DNA of 38,759 nt from Flavobacteriales bacterium (lineage in GTDB: Bacteria > Bacteroidota > Bacteroidia > Flavobacteriales_D > Sanyastnellaceae): the NCBI GenBank assembly GCA_029242765.1, contig JAQWTJ010000016.1, forward strand, positions 1-38,759, read 5' to 3'. The position numbers and the translations under genes are program-made. Of the stretch, positions 14,140 through 24,976 are shown one piece after another (the stretch's first letter is position 1; every line of letters starts with the position of its first letter). Below the pieces are notes generated by a model that saw nothing but the letters and a program-made list of their open reading frames with translations, ran no database searches and was not told the DNA's origin.

Positions 14140-16082
14140 GTCGGCAAGAACAAAAAATGGGGCGATCGGTGCGTTGGCAATCGATCAATGTGGCGACGCA
14201 AGTCGTGCTGCAAATTGTATTTCTACGTGTATTGGGCGCGTATTTGGTGCCCGGAGAGTGGGGCCTGATGGGCATCGCCTTAGCCATTGTGGGCATCATT
14301 GAAATCTTCGCGCAAATCGGCGTTGGGCCCTCGCTCATTCAACGCAAAAATCTTGAAGAACGGCACATTGCCGCTGCGTTCTGGCTCTCAACTTTGCTTG
14401 GGATTGTCTTTACGGCGGCCATCTATTTTGCAGCGCCAGCGGTAGCAAATATCTACGGTGACATGGCGCTGGTGCCCGTCCTGCGCTGGATTGGACTGAG
14501 CTTCACCCTGGCTGGTCTGGCGCTGGTCCCGCGAAGCATTCTGCTGCGCCGCATGGACTTCCAAAGCCTCTTTTGGTCCTCGCTTTCCTCCATGCTACTG
14601 GCCAACTGGGTGGTCGGTATCGGAATGGCCATTGCGGGCTACGGGCTCTGGTCGTACGCCGTCGCATTAATTGTACAGAACGCTTTGCTCGGCGTGAACT
14701 TCTGGTGGCGAGCCCGCGTTCGCATTCGCGGCGGAATGCCGTGGGCGGCGCTCCAACCTTTGCTCCGATACGGCACGGGCAGCACGCTGTTCAACGTATT
14801 CAACTACGGCGCCACCAAACTTGACGTCCTGGTGCTGGGCTACTTTCTACCCGGGACGGCTGAGTCGCGCATGGCCCGCACGGGGCTGTACGAGCGCGGC
14901 ACCTACGTCATGGGCTTGCCCATCACCATGCTGGGAAAACTATCAGACAGCGTTCTTTTTTCGGGCATGTCTTCAGTCCAATCCGACCCCAAAGCACTGG
15001 AACGCATCTTCCTTGCCGGTGTCTATTACGTGATGTGGTTGGTGGTGCCGGGCGTGGTCTTGCTTGAATTGTACAGCCGAGAAGTGGTGCTGCTCCTGCT
15101 GGGTCCAGCGCTGTTGGGCAGCGTGCCCATTGTTCAAATCCTGATGCTCGGCGTACTGGTGCGCGGACTGGTGAAGGTCTGCGACGCTTTGGTGCGCGCG
15201 GTAGATGCTGTGTGGGCAGCGGCGGCAATCAAGGGCGGCTTTATGCTCTGGGTGACCGCCGCAGCATGGTGGGGCGCAACGATTGGGCTGGAAGCGGTGG
15301 CTTGGGGCGTGGTGGCTGGGACGGTGCTTCAATGCGCCTTCATGCTAGGGTTGACCTCACGCAGGGTGGGCGTTCGGGCTGGGCGCATTTTACGCAAGGC
15401 CATTCCGGGGCTGGTGGTCGGAGCGCTGGCTGGCTTGGGCGGTGTGGCTGGCTATGCCTTGCCCGAAGACTGGGGTGTGGCGCGACTCGCCTTGGGCAGC
15501 GCGGCGGCCGGGCTCGTGCTGCTGGGCGGAACAATTGCTGCACCATGGATTTTTGCTCAAGGCGAACATGCTTTGCTGGCCGACTTGGCTGGCAAGCTGC
15601 CGGACGGCCGGCTAAAATCCCGTTGGAGCCGCCCAAGTAAAGCAGGAGGTGCTGCCGCTGCACTGGGCATGTTGTTAGCGCTGGGAAGCCCCGAATTGTC
15701 TGGCCAAAGTGCCACGCCGACTGCTATAACAACTCCAGAGCCTGTACTGATCGGGCCACCCGAGCCGGGGCAATGCAGCCCGGCCGTGGACCGACTGCAA
15801 GTGACGGCCTTCGAAACTGAATTGCAGGGCATCCCCTTTCAAGAAAAGCGATTGGAAGCCATGTTCACTTGGACCCAAAATCGGTGCTTGACGACCTATG
15901 CAGCCACACGTTTGCTGCACAACTTAGACGACGAAGTGCAGAAACTCGATCTCGCTTGCCACATTGTCAGCAAGATGAAGCACCCTGAGCAAGCCTCAGA
16001 ACTGGCCTCAACTTTTAATTTAAAGAGATACCGCCAACGCTTTGAAACGTGGCTTGGACAGACGAATTTTGCACCATGGTAA
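14136..16082 (+). CDS. Polysaccharide flippase (Wzx/MATE-like) fused to a secreted DUF4476-like domain
   Basis: Residues about 1-490 form a multi-pass membrane protein of the oligosaccharide flippase superfamily, which moves lipid-linked sugar units across the inner membrane (VRWQSINVATQVVLQIVFLRVLG, split here at about residue 25; GPSLIQRKNLEERHIAAAFW; LVPRSILLRRMDFQSL). After a basic linker (DGRLKSRWSRPSK) comes a signal-peptide-like hydrophobic stretch (about 505-522, ALGMLLALGSPELSGQ), then about 100 residues resembling DUF4476 (FETELQGIPFQEKRLEAM, CLTTYAATRLLHNLDDEVQ, LDLACHIVSKMKHPEQASEL, a Trp/Arg-rich end). By the positive-inside rule the last domain would face the periplasm. The frame is open throughout. 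The start is GTG 14136, coupled to zapA; ATG 14157 is an alternative. It overlaps serC by 7 bases. Confidence 0.85.
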   Translation: MSRQEQKMGRSVRWQSINVATQVVLQIVFLRVLGAYLVPGEWGLMGIALAIVGIIEIFAQIGVGPSLIQRKNLEERHIAAAFWLSTLLGIVFTAAIYFAAPAVANIYGDMALVPVLRWIGLSFTLAGLALVPRSILLRRMDFQSLFWSSLSSMLLANWVVGIGMAIAGYGLWSYAVALIVQNALLGVNFWWRARVRIRGGMPWAALQPLLRYGTGSTLFNVFNYGATKLDVLVLGYFLPGTAESRMARTGLYERGTYVMGLPITMLGKLSDSVLFSGMSSVQSDPKALERIFLAGVYYVMWLVVPGVVLLELYSREVVLLLLGPALLGSVPIVQILMLGVLVRGLVKVCDALVRAVDAVWAAAAIKGGFMLWVTAAAWWGATIGLEAVAWGVVAGTVLQCAFMLGLTSRRVGVRAGRILRKAIPGLVVGALAGLGGVAGYALPEDWGVARLALGSAAAGLVLLGGTIAAPWIFAQGEHALLADLAGKLPDGRLKSRWSRPSKAGGAAAALGMLLALGSPELSGQSATPTAITTPEPVLIGPPEPGQCSPAVDRLQVTAFETELQGIPFQEKRLEAMFTWTQNRCLTTYAATRLLHNLDDEVQKLDLACHIVSKMKHPEQASELASTFNLKRYRQRFETWLGQTNFAPW

Positions 16083-17155
16083 GCACCACTCAAATTCACA
16101 ATTTCTCTGCGGGCCCTTGCATTCTACCCCAATCCGTTATGATTGAGGCCGCCGAGGCTGTGCGGGAACTCGACGGATCCGGACTGTCCTTAATCGAAAT
16201 CTCGCATCGAAGCCCGGCCTTTGTCGCCATCATGGAAGAGGCTCAGGCCAATGTGCGCAAGCTTTTGAACGTTCCAGACCGCTTTGAAGTGCTGTTCCTG
16301 CAGGGCGGAGCGAGTTTGGGGTTTTTGACCACGGCGTCAAATTTCATGAGCACCAACGGTTCACTGGACTATGCTATCACGGGCACGTGGTCGAAAAAGG
16401 CTTTCGCCGAAGCGAAGCACGTGGGACCGGTTCACAAGATCACTGACGGAAGCGAATTGGGCTTTCGCAGCATCCCCGCATTGCCCGCAAGCTCGAGCGC
16501 GGACGCCGTCCACATCACCACCAACAACACGATTTTCGGGACCCAATACGCAACCGACCCCGCCACCGACAAGCCCCTGATTGGCGACATGAGCTCGGAC
16601 ATTTTCTCTCGCTCAATCGACTTTGACAAGTACGCCTGCGTGTATGCTGGAGCACAGAAGAATATGGGCCCTGCCGGCACGGTGATGTACATTTTTGACC
16701 CGTCGTTAGTCGCTGAAAATGAGCTACCTCTCCCCTCCTACCTCGACTTGAAGTTGCACGCCTCGAAGGACAGCATGTTCAACACGCCACCCGTCTTTGC
16801 CGTGTACACCAGCATGCTCAATTTGCGTTGGATGCTAAAGAACGGGGGGCTCGAAGCGGTCGAGCAGCGCAACCGCGCCAAGGCGCAGACGATGTACGCC
16901 GAGATTGACCGCAACGCATTGTTCACAGGCTTTGCCGAGACGGATTCGCGCTCAGTAATGAACGCCACGTTTACCGCGGTAGACGCGGCTGTCGAACCGG
17001 CCTTCAAGAAGATGTGCGCTGAGGCATGCATCAACGGGGTGAACGGCCACAAAAGCGTGGGCGGCTACCGGGCTTCGATGTACAATGCTTTGCCACTTTC
17101 AAGTGTAGAGGCACTGGTGGATGTGATGCGAGAATTGGAACGCACACACGGTTGA
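16076..17155 (+). CDS. serC: Phosphoserine aminotransferase
   Basis: PLP enzyme of L-serine synthesis: 3-phosphohydroxypyruvate plus glutamate to phosphoserine. ATG 16076 gives the usual N terminus (HNFSAGPCILPQSVM). Other signatures are LSLIEISHRSPAF, VLFLQGGASLGF, the Schiff-base Lys195 in AGAQKNMGPAG, TPPVFAVYTSMLNLRWM and the C-terminal GHKSVGGYRASMYNAL that binds the phosphate. The 359 residues match Bacteroidota SerC. The start overlaps the flippase C terminus by 7 bases; serA follows after 27 bases. Confidence 0.96.
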   Translation: MVSTTQIHNFSAGPCILPQSVMIEAAEAVRELDGSGLSLIEISHRSPAFVAIMEEAQANVRKLLNVPDRFEVLFLQGGASLGFLTTASNFMSTNGSLDYAITGTWSKKAFAEAKHVGPVHKITDGSELGFRSIPALPASSSADAVHITTNNTIFGTQYATDPATDKPLIGDMSSDIFSRSIDFDKYACVYAGAQKNMGPAGTVMYIFDPSLVAENELPLPSYLDLKLHASKDSMFNTPPVFAVYTSMLNLRWMLKNGGLEAVEQRNRAKAQTMYAEIDRNALFTGFAETDSRSVMNATFTAVDAAVEPAFKKMCAEACINGVNGHKSVGGYRASMYNALPLSSVEALVDVMRELERTHG

Positions 17156-17182
17156 TTTGATCATTTTTGAATCCAAATTCTC

Positions 17183-18133
17183 ATGAAGATTTTAGCAAAC
17201 GACGGCATCGCAGAAGCGGCGAAAATTCGCCTAGAAAGCGAAGGCATCACAGTGCATACCGACCACATTGAGCAGTCATTGCTCGTGGATGCGATTAACC
17301 GTGAAGGCTACGAAGGGCTGCTGGTTCGCAGCGCCACCAAGGTGCGCGAGCCGCTGATCGACGCCTGCCCCGATCTGCGATTCATTGGCCGCGGTGGCGT
17401 GGGCGTGGACAACATCGATGTGGAGTACGCGCGATCGAAAGGGCGGGTGGTCTTCAACACACCGGCAGCCTCCTCGCAAAGTGTGGCTGAGCTGGTTATG
17501 GCCCACTTGTTCGGCATGGCGCGCTTTCTGCCGTCAGCCTACCGGGTAATGCCCGAGCAAGGCGCCACAGAGTTCAAGAAATTCAAGAAGGCATTTGGCG
17601 GGGGCATTGAACTGCGGGGAAAAACACTGGGCATTATCGGCTTCGGGCGCATCGGACGCAGCGTAGCTCAATACGCATTGGGCTGTGGCATGGAGGTGGT
17701 GGCCAGTGACCTGAGCGGAACTGAACACACGGTGAACCTTGTGATCGGCGGACAAACGGTGGCTGTCAAAGTGCCGAGCATTCCGCTCGACGAACTCCTC
17801 AAACGTTCCGACGCGATCAGCCTGCACGTGCCTTCGCAAGCCAATGGAAGAGCGGTGATTGGAACAGACGAACTGGCGAAAATGAAACGCGGCGCCATGC
17901 TCGTGAACACAGCTCGGGGAGGAACCGTTGACGAAGCAGCCATTTGTGCTGCGCTGGAAAGCGGTCAACTCCGCAGTGCTGCGTTGGACGTTTTCAGCGG
18001 CGAGCCCAACCCCAACCCGAAGGTGCTCAGCGCCGTCGGTTTGGCCCTCACACCCCACACCGGTGCGGCAACGGTGGAAGCCCAGGATCGCATTGGCGAC
18101 GAACTTGTTGAGCAAATCCTAGCACTGCGTTGA
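17183..18133 (+). CDS. serA: D-3-phosphoglycerate dehydrogenase, short form
   Basis: First enzyme of serine synthesis, NAD-dependent oxidation of 3-phosphoglycerate. The Rossmann motif GIIGFGRIGRSVA starts at about residue 150. The catalytic trio is visible as Arg in VNTARGGTVDE, Glu in LDVFSGEP and His in LTPHTGAAT. At 316 residues it lacks the C-terminal ACT domain, so serine feedback through ACT is not expected. Placement after serC supports SerA over other 2-hydroxyacid dehydrogenases. Its TGA overlaps the ATG of the DUF1015 gene. Confidence 0.93.
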   Translation: MKILANDGIAEAAKIRLESEGITVHTDHIEQSLLVDAINREGYEGLLVRSATKVREPLIDACPDLRFIGRGGVGVDNIDVEYARSKGRVVFNTPAASSQSVAELVMAHLFGMARFLPSAYRVMPEQGATEFKKFKKAFGGGIELRGKTLGIIGFGRIGRSVAQYALGCGMEVVASDLSGTEHTVNLVIGGQTVAVKVPSIPLDELLKRSDAISLHVPSQANGRAVIGTDELAKMKRGAMLVNTARGGTVDEAAICAALESGQLRSAALDVFSGEPNPNPKVLSAVGLALTPHTGAATVEAQDRIGDELVEQILALR

Positions 18134-19404
18134 TGAAGGGTCCAAGAGAGTCGGCGGTGCTGCGACCCTTTGCTGCTTTGCGTCCGGCAGCGGACAAACC
18201 CCACCTTGTCGCGACCCGATCGTATTTGTCTTACTCAGATTACGAGCTCAGTGACAAACTCGAGCACAACCCCTATTCATACTTGCACGTAATCCACCCG
18301 GCGGGGATGAAAGACGACGAGTGGTCTGAGCCCTCGGCCAAGTTCTCAGCGGTGCGTTCGGCCTTGGAAGACTTTGTGGCGCGAGGTTGGCTCGTGGCTG
18401 ACGAGGCGCCGCATTTGTACGTCTACCGCCAAGCTTTTGACGGGCACGTGTGCACAGGGGTGGTGGGCATTGCAGGCGTGGACGTTGACCGCGCAGGTGC
18501 AAACCCAGGGGGCATCCGCGTACACGAGTCCACCCTCAGAGCACGGGAAGAACTTTTCGCCACCTACTTGACGCATGTGGGTGTCAATGCCGAACCGGCC
18601 CTACTGGCATTTCACAGCAACGCGGACACCACAAGTGCTTTGGCCACAGTGACCGCCGGGCGACCTTGTTCCGATTTCTCTACAGTGGACGGCGTGCGCC
18701 ACACCCTCTGGATGCCAAACCCTGCTGAAGAATCCACCTTGCTAACCGCTATCGGCGGCTGGGGCGATTTATACGTGGCGGATGGACACCATCGACTCGC
18801 CTCTTCCAAGCTCGTGGCAGAACGCAACCCGAAGGCCGTCCACGCCCACGGCTTCATGGCCTACTGTGTCCCACACACTGACCTGGTAGTGAAGGGCTTC
18901 CATCGCGTGGTGAAATCTGAAGACTTGCCCGATGTAAACGAGCTGATTAGCCGTATTGAACAGCTGGGCGTGAAAGTCTGCGACATCACCGATGAAGCAG
19001 GTGAAGTGCAGGCCGACTGCGGGCCTCGAAAAGCGCGCGAAATGGATTGGTACGCAGGCCTTGACACAAACGGTCGACCGCGAATTTTACGCCTGAGCAT
19101 TCCGGGGGAGGAACCCGTCCCTTCTTGGCTCAACAATCACTTTCTGGCGCCCTTGGTCGGCATCGTAGAGCCCCGCGATGACAACCGCCTGAGTTATTTG
19201 GGCGGCGACGCCAGCCCAGCTGAAATTCGCAAGGCCGCCGCTGCTGCCGACACGTGGGTCTTTGCTTTGGAGGCGATGACATTTGACGAACTCGCCCGGG
19301 TAGCTGACCGCGGCGGGGTGCTTCCACCCAAGTCCACATGGATTGCCCCGAAGCTCCGCAGCGGACTGCTCTTGTTTGATTTCGGACCATTGAATGCCGT
19401 GTGA
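18133..19404 (+). CDS. DUF1015 family protein
   Basis: Protein of unknown molecular function, 423 residues, the usual size for DUF1015. The family features are the opening LRPFAALRPAADKPHLVATRSY, read here as LRPFAALRPAADK, and the strongly conserved YVADGHHRLASS (about residue 213-224). The ATG at 18133 overlaps the serA stop (TGATG); a TTG at 18130 is an inferior alternative. DUF1015 genes commonly sit beside serA/serC in Bacteroidota and in some Clostridia, which suggests a role near serine or phosphoserine metabolism; a kinase-like role has been suggested but the sequence alone cannot show it. Confidence 0.9.
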   Translation: MKGPRESAVLRPFAALRPAADKPHLVATRSYLSYSDYELSDKLEHNPYSYLHVIHPAGMKDDEWSEPSAKFSAVRSALEDFVARGWLVADEAPHLYVYRQAFDGHVCTGVVGIAGVDVDRAGANPGGIRVHESTLRAREELFATYLTHVGVNAEPALLAFHSNADTTSALATVTAGRPCSDFSTVDGVRHTLWMPNPAEESTLLTAIGGWGDLYVADGHHRLASSKLVAERNPKAVHAHGFMAYCVPHTDLVVKGFHRVVKSEDLPDVNELISRIEQLGVKVCDITDEAGEVQADCGPRKAREMDWYAGLDTNGRPRILRLSIPGEEPVPSWLNNHFLAPLVGIVEPRDDNRLSYLGGDASPAEIRKAAAAADTWVFALEAMTFDELARVADRGGVLPPKSTWIAPKLRSGLLLFDFGPLNAV

Positions 19405-20078
19405 TGTCTGTGATTTCAGAGCATCTTCTTGAGGTTCGACAGGCCCTGCCCCCCGGTGTGGAATTGGTTGCTGTGAGCAAGACACGCACGGTAGAGGAAA
19501 TTCTTGAGGCCCTGGACACAGGCCAATTGGACTTTGGTGAGAACCGTGTACAAGAGCTTTTGACTAAAGTCGACGCGCTGCCCACCGCGCTGCGCTGGCA
19601 CCAAATTGGCACACTGCAGCGAAACAAAGTCAAGGCCATCGTGCCGTTCGTGCACCTGATTCACGCGGTGGATTCAGTGAAACTGCTCGAGGAAGTCGAA
19701 AAGCAAGCTGCAGCGGCAGGCCGTACAGTCACAGTGCTTCTGCAGGTGCACATTGCGACCGAAGACACCAAGCACGGCTTCACCCCCGACGAGTTGCGCA
19801 CTTTTTGTGAAAGGGAGGCCGAGAGCGGTGAAGGCGCTGTCGCTCACCCTCACGTACGCATCGCCGGGCTCATGGGCATGGCCAGCAACACGAAGTCTCG
19901 ACCACTTATCACGCACGAATTCAGCAAGTTGAATTCATTGTACGAAGAGCTCGGCGAGAGTTGCCCGGTGCCGTGGAAAACGCTTTCGATGGGCATGAGT
20001 TCGGACTGGAAAATCGCCGTGGATTGTGGCAGCACCCTGGTGCGCGTGGGCAGCGCCATCTTCGGCTCAAGAAGCTGA
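19404..20078 (+). CDS. YggS/PLPBP family pyridoxal-phosphate homeostasis protein
   Basis: Single-domain alanine-racemase-fold protein that binds PLP without known catalysis and buffers free PLP and amino-acid levels. Family landmarks: LVAVSKTRTVEEI with the PLP Lys at 26, FGENRVQELL, WHQIGTLQRNKVK, LLQVHIATEDTKHGF, IAGLMGMA and the C-terminal LSMGMSSDWKIAVDCG then VRVGSAIFG. At 224 residues it is full length. ATG 19404 overlaps the DUF1015 stop (TGATG). Being last in a run with PLP-dependent SerC fits its role. It is convergent with the flavin oxidase gene, 13 bases apart. Confidence 0.93.
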   Translation: MSVISEHLLEVRQALPPGVELVAVSKTRTVEEILEALDTGQLDFGENRVQELLTKVDALPTALRWHQIGTLQRNKVKAIVPFVHLIHAVDSVKLLEEVEKQAAAAGRTVTVLLQVHIATEDTKHGFTPDELRTFCEREAESGEGAVAHPHVRIAGLMGMASNTKSRPLITHEFSKLNSLYEELGESCPVPWKTLSMGMSSDWKIAVDCGSTLVRVGSAIFGSRS

Positions 20079-20091
20079 ACAGACGAAATCC

Positions 20092-21240
20092 TCAAACGGC
20101 CAAAACGGCCGGTGACCCGTAGAGACTCGGCCGTGATGAGGCGAAACGCTCTATGGAGATGGACGGGGGACGATCCAAGGCCAATTCCGCCAGCGTCCGT
20201 CCGATGAGTGGAGCGAACTTGAAACCGTGCCCAGAAAAGCCCGTGCCCAGAATGACACCCGACTCCGTACGCTCGAGAATGAAGTCCCGATCGCGGGTTC
20301 CAGTGTAAAAACAGACGTGCGTACGCTTGACTTGGGCACCGGCCAAGGCAGGATGGTAACGCGCCAAAAACTTACGCGCTGCGTTAATAAATGCAAGGTC
20401 TACAGCGCGGTCGTCTCCATCGGGATGCCCAGCGGGGCCAGGGTGATGATTGGCAATTTTCAAAAACCCATCGTGCCGAGTCGGGATGCCATAGAAGCCG
20501 GACTCCATATGAGAAAAGACAGGCAGATGTGAAATGTCGCGGCCCAAGGCAGACGCGGCGTCAAAATACACAAGCTGCTGGCGCGTCGTGTCAATGGGGG
20601 GCGTATTGGGAGCGAGGAGCTGCTTTGCCCAGACACCAGCCGTGACGACGACAGCGTCATAGCTCTTTCGCCCTCCATCGTCTTGGACCCATCGGCCGTC
20701 CACTGCTTCGGCGCGCCCACGGCGAATCAGACCGCGGGCGGTGAGTGAGGCGGCAAGGTGGAGTAGAATGCGGTCGGGCGAAAGGACACCGCCATAAGGG
20801 TCGAGAACGGCTGAATTCGCCTGGAAGCCGTAACGCTCGGTGGCTTGTTCGGCCGAGAAATCTCGGGCGAGCAGACCGTGGCCTCGCATAGCGTTACCGC
20901 ATGCTTGTGCATAGATGTCACCGGCGTCAGCCAGCAGAAGTTTGCCGCAGGGATGAAACCAGGGGCTGCCTTCGGGGTCAAGGCCTGCGTCGGCCTGCAT
21001 TTTGCGCCACATCGCTCGGCTCTCAAGCGCCATATTCATCATCTCGAGGTCCTCGCCGTAGTGCACACGAAAGCTGCGGCCCGTGTCATTGCTCGAGTTG
21101 ACCGAATTGGTCAGTGGCAATGGATCGTAGAGGGTCACACGGGCGCCGCTTTCGAGCAAACTGTGAGCGGTCATTGCGCCCATGATGCCGCCACCGACGA
21201 CGGCCACATGACGCTGAATGGGGTGGGATTGAACCGTCAT
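20092..21240 (-). CDS. FAD-dependent amine oxidase of the monomeric sarcosine oxidase/N-methyltryptophan oxidase type
   Basis: Predicted flavoenzyme that oxidises a secondary or primary amine, releasing H2O2. The N terminus carries the dinucleotide motif VVGGGIMG (residues 14-21), then the family patterns VTLYDP and GRSFRVHYGED. Late in the protein, THVCFYTGTRDRDFILE places Cys310 where monomeric sarcosine oxidase has the Cys that binds FAD covalently (315) and N-methyltryptophan oxidase has Cys308, followed by GTGFSGHGFKFAPLIG. The size of 382 residues is typical. Its ATG overlaps the stop of the upstream ATP-grasp gene (ATGA), so the two products likely act together. The substrate could be a free N-methyl amino acid or a conjugate made by the ATP-grasp enzyme (inference). 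Confidence 0.88.
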   Translation of the reverse strand: MTVQSHPIQRHVAVVGGGIMGAMTAHSLLESGARVTLYDPLPLTNSVNSSNDTGRSFRVHYGEDLEMMNMALESRAMWRKMQADAGLDPEGSPWFHPCGKLLLADAGDIYAQACGNAMRGHGLLARDFSAEQATERYGFQANSAVLDPYGGVLSPDRILLHLAASLTARGLIRRGRAEAVDGRWVQDDGGRKSYDAVVVTAGVWAKQLLAPNTPPIDTTRQQLVYFDAASALGRDISHLPVFSHMESGFYGIPTRHDGFLKIANHHPGPAGHPDGDDRAVDLAFINAARKFLARYHPALAGAQVKRTHVCFYTGTRDRDFILERTESGVILGTGFSGHGFKFAPLIGRTLAELALDRPPSISIERFASSRPSLYGSPAVLAV

Positions 21241-22205
21241 GAGGCGCGATTGTTTGACCAGCTGACATTCACACGTAAGCGCTCGACTTCTAGAAAACGG
21301 GCCAATTCACCCATGCCCGAAAGCCCAGCGGCAGAACGGCGTTCAGCAGCGGCATTGTAATTCGTGTTGATATTCACGTCGTAAAAGCGCAGGACGCCCT
21401 CGGCATCGCGGACGGCCTCCATGGCGGCGACTTCCATGCCCGAGGCAGCGAGGTAAGCCTCGCATCTGGCACGCTCTTGGAAGGTGTAATCTGGCTCCAC
21501 TTCGAACTTGTGGGCGTTGCCCTGAGAGGCCGGGCAAAAGGCATTGCCAACCTCCGATGGCAATTGGCACGAATCCGCCGGGCAAAGCTCGAAGCCCCCC
21601 GAAGCGTCCACATGAACGGCATAGTAAAAACGGCCGCCTATGAACTCGTGACGCGTTATACGGCCGTCAGCAGGCTGGATGTATTCCTGAAGCAGGACCG
21701 TGCCATCCAAGGTCAATTCATCGAATGAATCGGCCATACGGCGCACGTCATCGGCATTGCGGACAAGTTCGACTCCGGCTCCCTTGCCACCTCGATTTGG
21801 CTTGACGATGAAGGGGAAGCTCCAGCGAGCAGCCGCCTTGACGAAGGCCCCAGCTCCGGTGACTGCCACGGTGTGAGGAACTGAAATTCCATATGCTTGC
21901 AACCCGATGATTTGCTCCACTTTGCTAACCTCAAGACCGATAGCCCGCCTGTCGTTCACCACCCTGCGGCCGTGAGCGGTCAACCAGGCCATCAGTCCAC
22001 GCGTCGCTTCCACAGCGTACCGATGATCTCGGGTGTGGGACGAAGCACTCATGCGGTTGTAGAACACGCCCTGAGGCGGAGCCGAAGAAAGGTCCAACTG
22101 AAGCTCATCAATGAACCATTCTGTAAAGGGTGCACCGATGGCCAACAGTGCTCGACGCAAGGGCTCGACCCAGGCGTCATTTTCGTGGATGATGTAGATG
22201 TGCAT
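21237..22205 (-). CDS. ATP-grasp ligase, RimK/glutathione-synthetase-like
   Basis: Predicted ATP-dependent carboxylate-amine ligase of unknown substrates, 322 residues. A pre-grasp N-terminal domain (MHIYIIHENDAWVEPL) is followed by the ATP-grasp fold: FPFIVKPNRGGKGAGVELV (Lys and Gly-rich loop), VLLQEYIQP (hinge Glu), DGRITRHEFIGGRFYYAV, and the metal-binding end FYDVNINTNYN, where D-x-N-x-N replaces the usual E-x-N. An unusual insertion between them (FELCPADSCQLPSEVGNAFCPAS, about residues 207-229) holds three Cys. It is first in a two-gene operon with the flavin oxidase. No -7 box is obvious upstream; the priA terminator lies 33 bases before its ATG. Confidence 0.85.
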   Translation of the reverse strand: MHIYIIHENDAWVEPLRRALLAIGAPFTEWFIDELQLDLSSAPPQGVFYNRMSASSHTRDHRYAVEATRGLMAWLTAHGRRVVNDRRAIGLEVSKVEQIIGLQAYGISVPHTVAVTGAGAFVKAAARWSFPFIVKPNRGGKGAGVELVRNADDVRRMADSFDELTLDGTVLLQEYIQPADGRITRHEFIGGRFYYAVHVDASGGFELCPADSCQLPSEVGNAFCPASQGNAHKFEVEPDYTFQERARCEAYLAASGMEVAAMEAVRDAEGVLRFYDVNINTNYNAAAERRSAAGLSGMGELARFLEVERLRVNVSWSNNRAS

Positions 22206-22237: not shown

Positions 22238-22264
22238 AAAAAAAAAGCCCGGCAAAGGCCGGGC
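22238..22264 (-). terminator. Intrinsic terminator downstream of priA
   Basis: On the minus strand the stem GCCCGGC (from 22264) pairs with GCCGGGC across a 4-base loop and is followed by nine T residues (A-run at 22238-22246 on the plus strand). It separates priA from the ATP-grasp operon. The remainder of the spacer, 22265-22471, shows no gene or RNA I can support. Confidence 0.85.
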
Positions 22265-22471: not shown

Positions 22472-24976
22472 TCAATACGGGTCGACGTCAACGATGACGC
22501 GGATCGACTTCCACGCCTTTACTTTTGAGAGCGCCTCCACGTCTCGGGCCAAGGCCTCCTTGAACGTGGTCGCTGAAGATTCCCGTTCAAGCTTGATTAA
22601 GACGTTGCGTATATACGTGTCATTCACGCGCGGGACAGGCGGCTCTTCTGGCCCCACCACCCGGTCGCTGTAGCGTTCGCGTAGGCGTTGGGCAAAGGCC
22701 GCAGCGGCAATACGCAGCAAGTAAGGATCACGATGTCGCAAAGAGATGCGGAACAACCGCGTATGCGGCGGGTAGGCATAGGCCTGTCGCTCGTGCATCT
22801 CCGCATCGGCCATCCGCTGGGAATCATGGGTCAGCACATGTTGCAAGACCCAATGTTCAGGATCGAAGGTTTGTACCAAGACAAGACCTCGCGTATTTCG
22901 GCGACCGGCGCGACCTGCGACCTGCGTTAGCAATTGGAATGTCCGCTCGAAAGCTCGGAAGTCTGGAAAATGTAGCAAGCGGTCAGCTTGTAGGACGCCG
23001 ACCAATCCCACACCATCAAAATCCAGACCTTTGGTCACCATCTGCGTGCCGACCAATACGCGCGTCTCCCCTTGTTCAAAGCGTTCAATAATGCGTTCAT
23101 GGCCTCGGGCCGAACGGGTCGTATCCAGGTCCATCCGCTCCACGCCGTGGTCAGGGAATTTTGCCTGCACCTCTTCAACAATGCGCTCGGTTCCCAGTCC
23201 TTTGGAAATCAAATCCTTCCCCTTGCATCGAGGACACTCCGGCGGAACACTCTTGCGGTAACCGCAATAATGGCAATGCAAATCCTCCAAGCGCTTGTGA
23301 TACGTTAAGCCTACATCGCATCGCTCACACTCGGGCGTCCAACCGCACAAGTGACATTGGATTGTGGGGGCGTAGCCGCGACGGTTCTGGAACAGAATGA
23401 CCTGGCGCCCGGCCTTGAGCGTTGAATCGATGGCCTCCATGAGCTCCTTCGAAAAATGGCCCTCCATTGTGCGGCGCTTGTAGTGTGCTCGAAGGTCGAC
23501 GATGCGCACCTCAGGCAACACAGCCCCACCAAAACGTTCGCTGAGCAGCACGTGATGCATCCGATTCACCTGAACCAATCGCCGGGATTCAAGTGAAGGT
23601 GTCGCCGAGCCGAGCAGCACACGTGCACCGTGCAATTGGGCAAGCTTCAAAGCGGCATCACGGGCTTGGTAGCGCGGAGCAGGGTCCTGCTGCTTATAAC
23701 TCGCGTCGTGCTCCTCGTCCACCACAATCAGACCGAGATTAGAGAAGGGCATGAAAATGGCCGAACGAGCACCTACCACCAAGCGCCCGCCCTTCTCCCC
23801 TGCCGAAATCCGGGCGTGGGTCGCTGTGCGCTGGCGCGGGCTGAAGCGGCTGTGATAGACCTCAAGGTGGCGCCCAAAGAACTTTCGCAGTCGCACGATG
23901 AGCTGGGCCGTCAATGCAATCTCGGGCACGAGAAAGAGCACGTCTCGACCCTGCCTGAGCTCCCGGTCGATGGCGTGCGTGTAGACCTCTGTTTTCCCCG
24001 AACCCGTAACGCCCTCAAGCAGCACGTTCAGGTCTTTTTCAAAGCCCAGCTCCACGTCTTGAAGCGCCTTCAATTGGGCCGGACTGAGTGCAGCCAAGGC
24101 CACCACGCTCTCTCCTTGGGGGGCAGCCCAAGGGTCGCGCTCAAACTTCACGAGTACGCCACGCGTCACAAGCCGTTGAATTCCCCCTCGAATTTGGGCG
24201 TCGGTGGCACCTTCAACAGCTTTGAGCAAGGGGGAAAGCGGTGCCCCCTCGAGCAAGTCGTCAAACTTCGCGGCCAAGGCCACCAGCAAGTGATGCTGAA
24301 TGGGCGCCTTGCGAGCGGTCAACTCCATCTGTTCAGCGAGCCAAGGTTCGTCAGAGGCAGCCCTTTGTGACCAGCGCACCATAGCAACCTTACGCGGCTT
24401 GGCTGCGGTCTTCAGCTCCTCAGTCGACACAACCCATCCCGCATCCACAAGGCGCTGGACGGCTTGTGCCGGGTGTGGAACGTTCAGCGCGCGGCCCAAC
24501 TCCACCAGCGTCATGCTGCCGCGTATGCGCAATGCCTCCACCACGTCGAAGGCGGAGTCGTCCAAGCCCGCCTCATCAAACTCTTTATTCTCTAACGTAG
24601 ATGCAGCCAATTCCACGCGCGTCTCGCTGCCCAGCCTCAAACCAGCTGGCAAAGCTGCCAGGGCCACCTCCCCTAAACCGCACATGTAGTATTCAGCAAT
24701 CCAATCCCAGAATTTGAGCGCCTGAATCGGCACCACAGGACGCTCGTCGAGGACCGCCTCGATGGGCACGACCTTGTATGCGGGGGCGTCAAGGCGAGCG
24801 TGATGGACAATGGCCGTGTAAAGTCGTCGGCCTCGCAATGGAACGACCACGCGAACACCCGGCTGGATTGAATTGAAAGGAACACCCTCTGGAACTGCAT
24901 AGGTCAGCAAGCCTGGAAGCGCCAAAGGCAGCACCACCTCCACCCAAAATTTCTCGCTTGTCGACGCCTCGCCCAT
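22472..24976 (-). CDS. priA: Primosomal protein N' (replication restart helicase PriA)
   Basis: 3'-5' DNA helicase that recognises stalled forks and reloads the replisome. A DNA-binding N-terminal domain (WVEVVLPLALPGLLTYAVPE) leads to the helicase core with Walker A EGVTGSGKTEVY (about residue 318-329), the DEEH box in VVDEEHDASYK and LLGSATPSLES. A zinc region with eight Cys at about 535-585 follows (CHLCGWTPECERC; CHYCGYRK; CPRCKG). The helicase C domain has LVGTQMVTKGLDFDG and QVAGRAGR. ATG 24976 is preferred over the in-frame ATG 25000: a TAATTTCG box sits 5 bases upstream of it, and the longer form would overlap the divergent bcp start. Confidence 0.95.
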   Translation of the reverse strand: MGEASTSEKFWVEVVLPLALPGLLTYAVPEGVPFNSIQPGVRVVVPLRGRRLYTAIVHHARLDAPAYKVVPIEAVLDERPVVPIQALKFWDWIAEYYMCGLGEVALAALPAGLRLGSETRVELAASTLENKEFDEAGLDDSAFDVVEALRIRGSMTLVELGRALNVPHPAQAVQRLVDAGWVVSTEELKTAAKPRKVAMVRWSQRAASDEPWLAEQMELTARKAPIQHHLLVALAAKFDDLLEGAPLSPLLKAVEGATDAQIRGGIQRLVTRGVLVKFERDPWAAPQGESVVALAALSPAQLKALQDVELGFEKDLNVLLEGVTGSGKTEVYTHAIDRELRQGRDVLFLVPEIALTAQLIVRLRKFFGRHLEVYHSRFSPRQRTATHARISAGEKGGRLVVGARSAIFMPFSNLGLIVVDEEHDASYKQQDPAPRYQARDAALKLAQLHGARVLLGSATPSLESRRLVQVNRMHHVLLSERFGGAVLPEVRIVDLRAHYKRRTMEGHFSKELMEAIDSTLKAGRQVILFQNRRGYAPTIQCHLCGWTPECERCDVGLTYHKRLEDLHCHYCGYRKSVPPECPRCKGKDLISKGLGTERIVEEVQAKFPDHGVERMDLDTTRSARGHERIIERFEQGETRVLVGTQMVTKGLDFDGVGLVGVLQADRLLHFPDFRAFERTFQLLTQVAGRAGRRNTRGLVLVQTFDPEHWVLQHVLTHDSQRMADAEMHERQAYAYPPHTRLFRISLRHRDPYLLRIAAAAFAQRLRERYSDRVVGPEEPPVPRVNDTYIRNVLIKLERESSATTFKEALARDVEALSKVKAWKSIRVIVDVDPY

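Follow-up and report, generated by a model that had tools for sequence, protein, structure and literature searches.

Two adjacent genes, predicted to encode an ATP-grasp ligase and a flavoprotein oxidase of the monomeric sarcosine oxidase (MSOX)/MTOX family, were found to be a fixed, conserved unit in one genus and one sister genus of Flavobacteriales. The pair was located on the minus strand of the window, by which we mean the whole analysed stretch of 38,759 nucleotides, and the two enzymes are probably co-translated. Both superfamilies are already known, and the pairing of the two is a new combination. A literature search confined to open-licence papers returned no paper on this gene combination. 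The original prediction had named these enzyme classes and an operon and had matched them to no named pathway, and this assignment was upheld. In the wider survey described below, the ligase was the constant element, and its neighbour varied by lineage.

The ligase gene (21237..22205, minus strand) encoded 322 aa, and the oxidase gene (20092..21240, minus strand) encoded 382 aa. The stop of the first and the start of the second overlapped in an ATGA (21237..21240, minus strand). Both genes, their strand and their overlap had been predicted with correct coordinates (ORFs 22205..21237 and 21240..20092). The gene upstream of the ligase was priA, whose stop ended at 22472. An intrinsic terminator was located between priA and the ligase (22238..22264, minus strand), with a stem of seven pairs, all GC, a loop of four and nine T; the strong terminator proposed for this place was therefore real. 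The 40-nt stretch containing it had a folding energy of −16.8 kcal/mol (z −4.2), and none of 200 shuffles was equally stable. The wider region held 3 terminator-like sites against 2.9 expected, a count that is uninformative by itself, and the priA/ligase terminator was distinguished by its stem. The distance from its T-run to the ligase start was 32 nt. A scan for sigma-70 promoters, the only type within its reach, gave no minus-strand site from priA to the ligase. On the other side, a YggS-like gene convergent with the oxidase ended at 20078, leaving a gap of 13 nt to the oxidase end. This gene belonged to a serC-serA-DUF1015-yggS-like block (window 16049-20078) convergent to the pair, and the block was called beside the pair in other loci of the genus too. 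The window's genome (2.22 Mb, 110 contigs) contained one match to the ligase and one to the oxidase.

The conservation of the pair was examined in 60 genomes including the window's own, namely 17 of the genus, one of a second genus (G018), 19 of the family and 23 of the order. A full-length ligase (>400 bits) was present in 14 of the 17 genus genomes and in G018 of the sister genus. The remaining 42 genomes of the family and order gave weak ATP-grasp matches in eight cases (E 9e-5 or worse) and none in 34, and the three genus genomes without the ligase were 67, 74, and 78% complete. The oxidase was present in exactly the 15 ligase-bearing genomes, and no genome among the 60 had one gene without the other. 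Moreover, in 15/15 the oxidase was the next gene after the ligase and shared its strand (the contig of G008 ends inside the oxidase). The ATGA was found at the ligase stop in all 15, although in seven of them the start best matching the window's protein was further in. Among the 13 loci compared, priA was immediately upstream in 12, the exception being L026 of G018, and the ORF calls included a downstream YggS-like gene in 7. The sequences of L016 and L023 stop at or within the oxidase, and the simple ORF caller picked other frames in L018, L019, and L024; serA was still called in L018. The pN/pS values against the nearest relative (L016) were 0.17 for the ligase and 0.25 for the oxidase, and those of two other pairs of the genus ranged from 0.13 to 0.17, all of them rough values since synonymous sites were near saturation. 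Together with the order and junction kept in 15/15, the values of 0.17 and 0.25 indicate that the pair is more than chance.

The oxidase is almost certainly a member of the MSOX/MTOX family. It matched Pfam DAO with 172.7 bits over residues 11-353, and its best solved sequence relatives were monomeric sarcosine oxidases (E 3e-30). The sequence scores were 108.8 bits for MSOX, 65 bits for N-methyl-L-tryptophan oxidase (MTOX/SolA, 2uzz), and 43.8 bits for NikD (2oln). An AlphaFold model built from nine sequences had a mean pLDDT of 79 and superposed on Bacillus MSOX/SoxB (1zov) with Z 35.3 and an rmsd of 3.2 over 355 aligned residues; NikD (Z 34.1) and MTOX (Z 34.0), of the same fold and superfamily, were barely behind. 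The oxidase thus shared the whole fold with MSOX, and its identity to the MSOX structures (1zov, 1el5) was 24-27%. In MSOX, Cys315 is the attachment site of the covalent FAD and Lys265 is the O2 site. The MSOX positions were mapped onto the oxidase through a phmmer alignment. Nine catalytic or carboxylate-binding residues were checked, and all were kept and invariant in 9/9 clade sequences of a nine-row alignment. MSOX R49, R52, Y55, Y254, K265, H269, C315, Y317, and K348 corresponded to R55, R58, Y61, Y250, K261, H265, C310, Y312, and K341 of the oxidase; these included the active-site Tyr and His, and C310 was the covalent-FAD cysteine of the original prediction. His44 and His45 of MSOX were not retained.

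In PMC12582975, Arg52, Tyr55, and Lys348 of the Sox family are described as binding the carboxyl group of the substrate, and Phe100, Met245, and Tyr254 as forming the pocket. Two of these three pocket residues differed in the oxidase and Tyr254 alone was kept: the Met245 position was Phe in 9/9 clade oxidases, and the Phe100 position was Tyr, His or Ser. Sarcosine itself may therefore not be the substrate. The score was also under both NCBIfam cut-offs, with 158.4 against 479.65 bits for soxA_mon and 166 against 257 bits for N-methyltryptophan oxidase; judged by its sequence, the enzyme is not an evident sarcosine oxidase. It differed from MSOX further in being coupled to an ATP-grasp gene. 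The substrate is probably an N-substituted amino acid. NikD converts a cyclic amino acid into a cyclic imine or an aromatic acid. A small natural-product pathway was considered on this model, in which the oxidase would make such a product and the ligase would couple the acid to an amine. The common fold (Z 34.1, close to the 35.3 of MSOX) and the altered pocket agree with it, but NikD scored below MSOX in sequence and the two genes stood without further biosynthetic genes adjoining. We regard this pathway as very unlikely.

The ligase very probably belongs to the RimK/LysX-like ATP-grasp enzymes. Its Pfam RimK score was 23.1 bits, above the gathering score of 21, and 16 of 18 ligase relatives matched the same family at E 0.01. 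A profile of these 18 relatives recovered chains of RimK (E 7e-14) and also ArgX (E 3e-10). The ligase was below the NCBIfam cut-offs of rimK_fam (60.8 vs 143.4), LysX_arch (42 vs 275.6), and PRK10446 (17.3 vs 331), and the three family members scanned (from the window, Pediococcus, and Spirosoma) were under every NCBIfam cut-off listed. The model had a mean pLDDT of 76, with residues 55-59 and 207-232 below 50. Its nearest structures were ArgX (Z 13.0), LysX (12.3), and RimK (11.1), over about 190 residues; DcsG, AMdnB, and DdlA reached Z 12.0-12.2, so the ranking of the structural relatives is not firm, other ATP-grasp ligases being within 1 Z of the closest. Residues before 86 were barely covered by this comparison. 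ArgX and LysX, the ligases of the amino-group carrier protein (3vpb, 3vpd), and RimK (5zct) shared the ATP-grasp fold, the core and the metal-site positions with the ligase, but the identity over the aligned part was 17-24%. The enzyme is a putative amino-acid ligase by fold and distant sequence likeness alone, and it apparently represents an uncharacterised family of a known superfamily. With these scores and identities, close orthology to any characterised enzyme was ruled out for either protein in the libraries searched. Such orthology would have counted against the original prediction, but the oxidase was 24-27% identical to MSOX and the ligase gave weak RimK-type matches.

The family had a signature of its own. 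In an alignment of 32 ligases (9 of the clade and 23 from outside), K95, K135, E263, D276, and N278 were invariant (32/32), and N50, S55, R59, and N282 were each present in 31/32. Residues E263, D276, and N278 aligned with D, E, and N of RimK, which we take to be its metal-binding positions. C208 and C213 were each found in 31/32, the exception being the divergent protein of G1097, which was without the signature. The strict pattern F-x-L-C-P-x-[DE]-x-C was present in 30/32 and missing in L103 and L105; the latter (the G1110 protein) carries YNLCPANSC and so misses it. The window ligase carried FELCPADSC together with N50, S55, R59, D276, N278, and N282. The predicted Cys-containing insertion was therefore real and was the family signature. 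A D-x-N-x-N metal site had been claimed as well, and this was partly right: D276-V-N278-I-N280 was present, with D276 and N278 conserved throughout, but N280 was not conserved and N282 was the near-invariant asparagine. In the RimK alignments, the signature was located between the two pieces that matched, where the sequences did not align; from this position outside the RimK-aligned pieces, we infer that the FxLCPx[DE]xC stretch may shape the acceptor or carboxylate site.

Ligases of this family were also found far from the clade. The search recovered the ligase in 10 of 395 genomes of a phylum sample (E 1e-20, one being the window's own) and in 3 of 398 genomes of a Pseudomonadota sample, the phylum of an Anaplasma record. 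In the orders around the three Pseudomonadota genomes, it was found in 4/197, 6/128, and 4/87 genomes, centre included (E 1e-25). The genome searches covered these samples of Bacteroidota and Pseudomonadota. Plasmid matches came from five Pediococcus records, of which one was opened, and one Spirosoma record. In total, 25 distinct ligase loci outside the clade were collected. No MSOX-like tblastn match was found in the fetched flanks of the 25, those of the nine phylum loci being 1.5 kb for G252 and G256 and about 1 to 9 kb for the others. The co-conservation of the pair, which had been proposed for checking across Bacteroidota, was complete within the clade (15/15 ligase-bearing genomes) and, in the genomes and loci sampled, was seen only in the genus and one sister genus. 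A pair general to Bacteroidota was ruled out, the nine other ligase genomes of the phylum having no MSOX-like match in their flanks.

The commonest neighbour outside the clade was an SfnG-like LLM monooxygenase, encoded next to the ligase and in the same direction in 11/25 loci (G204, G252, G256, G401, G445, G444, G223, G129, G675, G1080, and G1089). A sodium:dicarboxylate-family symporter was beside the ligase in 3/25 (Pediococcus, G789, and G1110). In G719, the ligase gene shared 4 nt with the gene of a cystathionine gamma-lyase (L052 9981-12040; PRK07582, 470.9 bits against a cut-off of 440), and the Spirosoma plasmid ligase had as neighbours two permeases for amino acids and one SsuD-like LLM (1/25). 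No evident partner was found in 8/25 (G366, G930, G962, G857, G998, G1018, G1111, and G1168), with contig ends near the ligase in G857 and G1168, and the G1097 locus was left unclassed. The eight loci indicate that the ligase does not need a fixed neighbour to work. The symporter was followed by the ligase at L029 6733-8918 (a Pediococcus acidilactici plasmid), L053 8805-10960, and L105 6779-8897 (the small Pseudomonadota genomes G789 and G1110).

In a FastTree phylogeny, the window clade fell with ligases from Pseudomonadota and Pediococcus whose partner was a lyase, a symporter or absent, and it was separated from the LLM-linked ligases (f47) found in its own phylum; the joining nodes had local support of only 0.66 to 0.78. 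Acquisition of the clade ligase from outside Bacteroidota would fit this placement. An LLM gene elsewhere in the window's genus would speak against a swap of partners; no match was obtained in 40 genomes, but this set contained no positive control and we draw no conclusion from it. Spread by phages or viruses was considered and rejected: the phage collection gave no match at E 1e-5, and none of 76 viral_contigs pattern matches was confirmed.

The oxidase was distributed differently outside the clade. It was detected at E 1e-25 in 17 of 296 phylum genomes, one being the window's own, and the best outside relative scored 199 bits against 622. At the stricter E 1e-40, 1 of 200 Pseudomonadota genomes had a match. 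Eight outside loci, comprising 7 of the 16 other phylum genomes with a match and G591, were inspected in stretches of 13.5-20 kb, and no ligase-profile match was found near the oxidase in any of them; an oxidase always accompanied by the ligase was thereby ruled out. The plasmid matches of the oxidase (144 records) were all below 60% identity, with about 26-30% in the 40 of the 144 matches listed. In G311 and G192, the MSOX-like oxidase adjoined a gene of the ornithine-cyclodeaminase/mu-crystallin family (L081 9114-11177; L087 8389-10427). The separate occurrence of either gene, the ligase being alone in 8/25 outside loci and the oxidase having no ligase-profile match nearby in 8/8, agrees with plain salvage. 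The oxidase would then break down N-methyl amino acids as a nitrogen or carbon source, and the role of the ligase would be separate, with no common intermediate. However, the ATGA coupling was fixed in 15/15 and the two genes shared an identical presence and absence over 60 genomes, and we consider plain salvage unlikely.

Our preferred reading is that the oxidase supplies an amino acid and the ligase couples it, although we put its chance somewhat short of even. R58, Y61, and K341 of the oxidase would bind a free alpha-amino acid that is N-alkylated (or cyclic). Covalent FAD and O2 would oxidise the C-N bond to an imine, and hydrolysis would yield an aldehyde and the primary amino acid, with H2O2. 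Using ATP and Mg, the ligase would convert a carboxylate into an acyl phosphate and join this to an amine. The amino acid freed by the oxidase would be one of these two substrates, and the product would be a small dipeptide or a gamma-glutamyl-type amide. In other bacteria, a different neighbour or the general pool would provide the amino acid for ligases of this family. This reading was preferred because a symporter, a cysteine-freeing lyase and an oxidase with the MSOX carboxylate residues could each supply an amino acid. Possible suppliers of this kind were found at 5/25 outside loci (the symporter at three, the cystathionine gamma-lyase at one, and the two permeases at one). The LLM is not an obvious amino-acid supplier and fits less clearly; this poor fit of the commonest neighbour and the eight partnerless loci account for the low confidence.

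The original prediction had placed conjugation before oxidation. In that order, an amino acid or amine would first be conjugated by the ligase; oxidation of a C-N bond of the conjugate by the oxidase, or recycling of the conjugate, would follow. The ligase gene does lead the operon, and a different flavin oxygenase directly downstream of the ligase in 11/25 outside loci would fit a later oxidative step. However, the residues with which MSOX holds a free carboxylate are retained in the oxidase, and the symporter and lyase neighbours elsewhere resemble supply steps. To our knowledge, an amide nitrogen is not a substrate of MSOX, so the conjugate would have to form through a side chain. The predicted order thus appears less likely than the reverse, and we judge it rather improbable. 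The replacement of one neighbour by another, be it a flavoenzyme of an unrelated type, a C-S lyase or a transporter, offers a natural hint at the ligase substrate. Furthermore, both enzymes of the window pair can be examined in a joint assay, so that the substrate question is directly testable.

A more specific product can be imagined, although it is a long shot. The ligase family might make a Cys-containing small molecule, such as a gamma-glutamyl-cysteine-like or other dipeptide thiol, with each lineage adding its own cysteine source. These sources would be the cystathionine gamma-lyase in G719, the importer in Pediococcus, G789, and G1110, and a sulfur-compound monooxygenase in the LLM lineages. 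In the window, the oxidase would free cysteine from thioproline, its formaldehyde adduct, or from N-methyl-cysteine. The evidence is circumstantial and consists of the sulfur-type partners, the two conserved cysteines in a stretch absent from RimK, and the weak activity of SoxB on thioproline. In PMC12582975, Bacillus SoxB is described as acting weakly on L-thioproline, with a kcat/Km of 0.17% of that for sarcosine. If true, this would be an unrecognised low-molecular-weight thiol route in very different bacteria. The ATP-grasp family with its own signature was found in Bacteroidota, Pseudomonadota and a Pediococcus plasmid.

The ligase and SfnG-like LLM pairs (Bacteroidota families f47 and f20; G675, G1080, and G1089) resembled the window pair in combining a ligase of the same family with a flavoenzyme that follows immediately on the ligase strand, but their flavoenzyme was a monooxygenase of the bacterial-luciferase type, with no relation to the sarcosine-oxidase fold. 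Such pairs, apparently uncharacterised, were located at L042 6957-9004, L044 6920-8950, and L045 6852-8874, and further ones at L046 7628-9758, L047 7477-9514, and L054 8680-10601. The LLM protein of L042 was close to PDB 3rao (453 bits), which is named 'Putative Luciferase-like Monooxygenase'.
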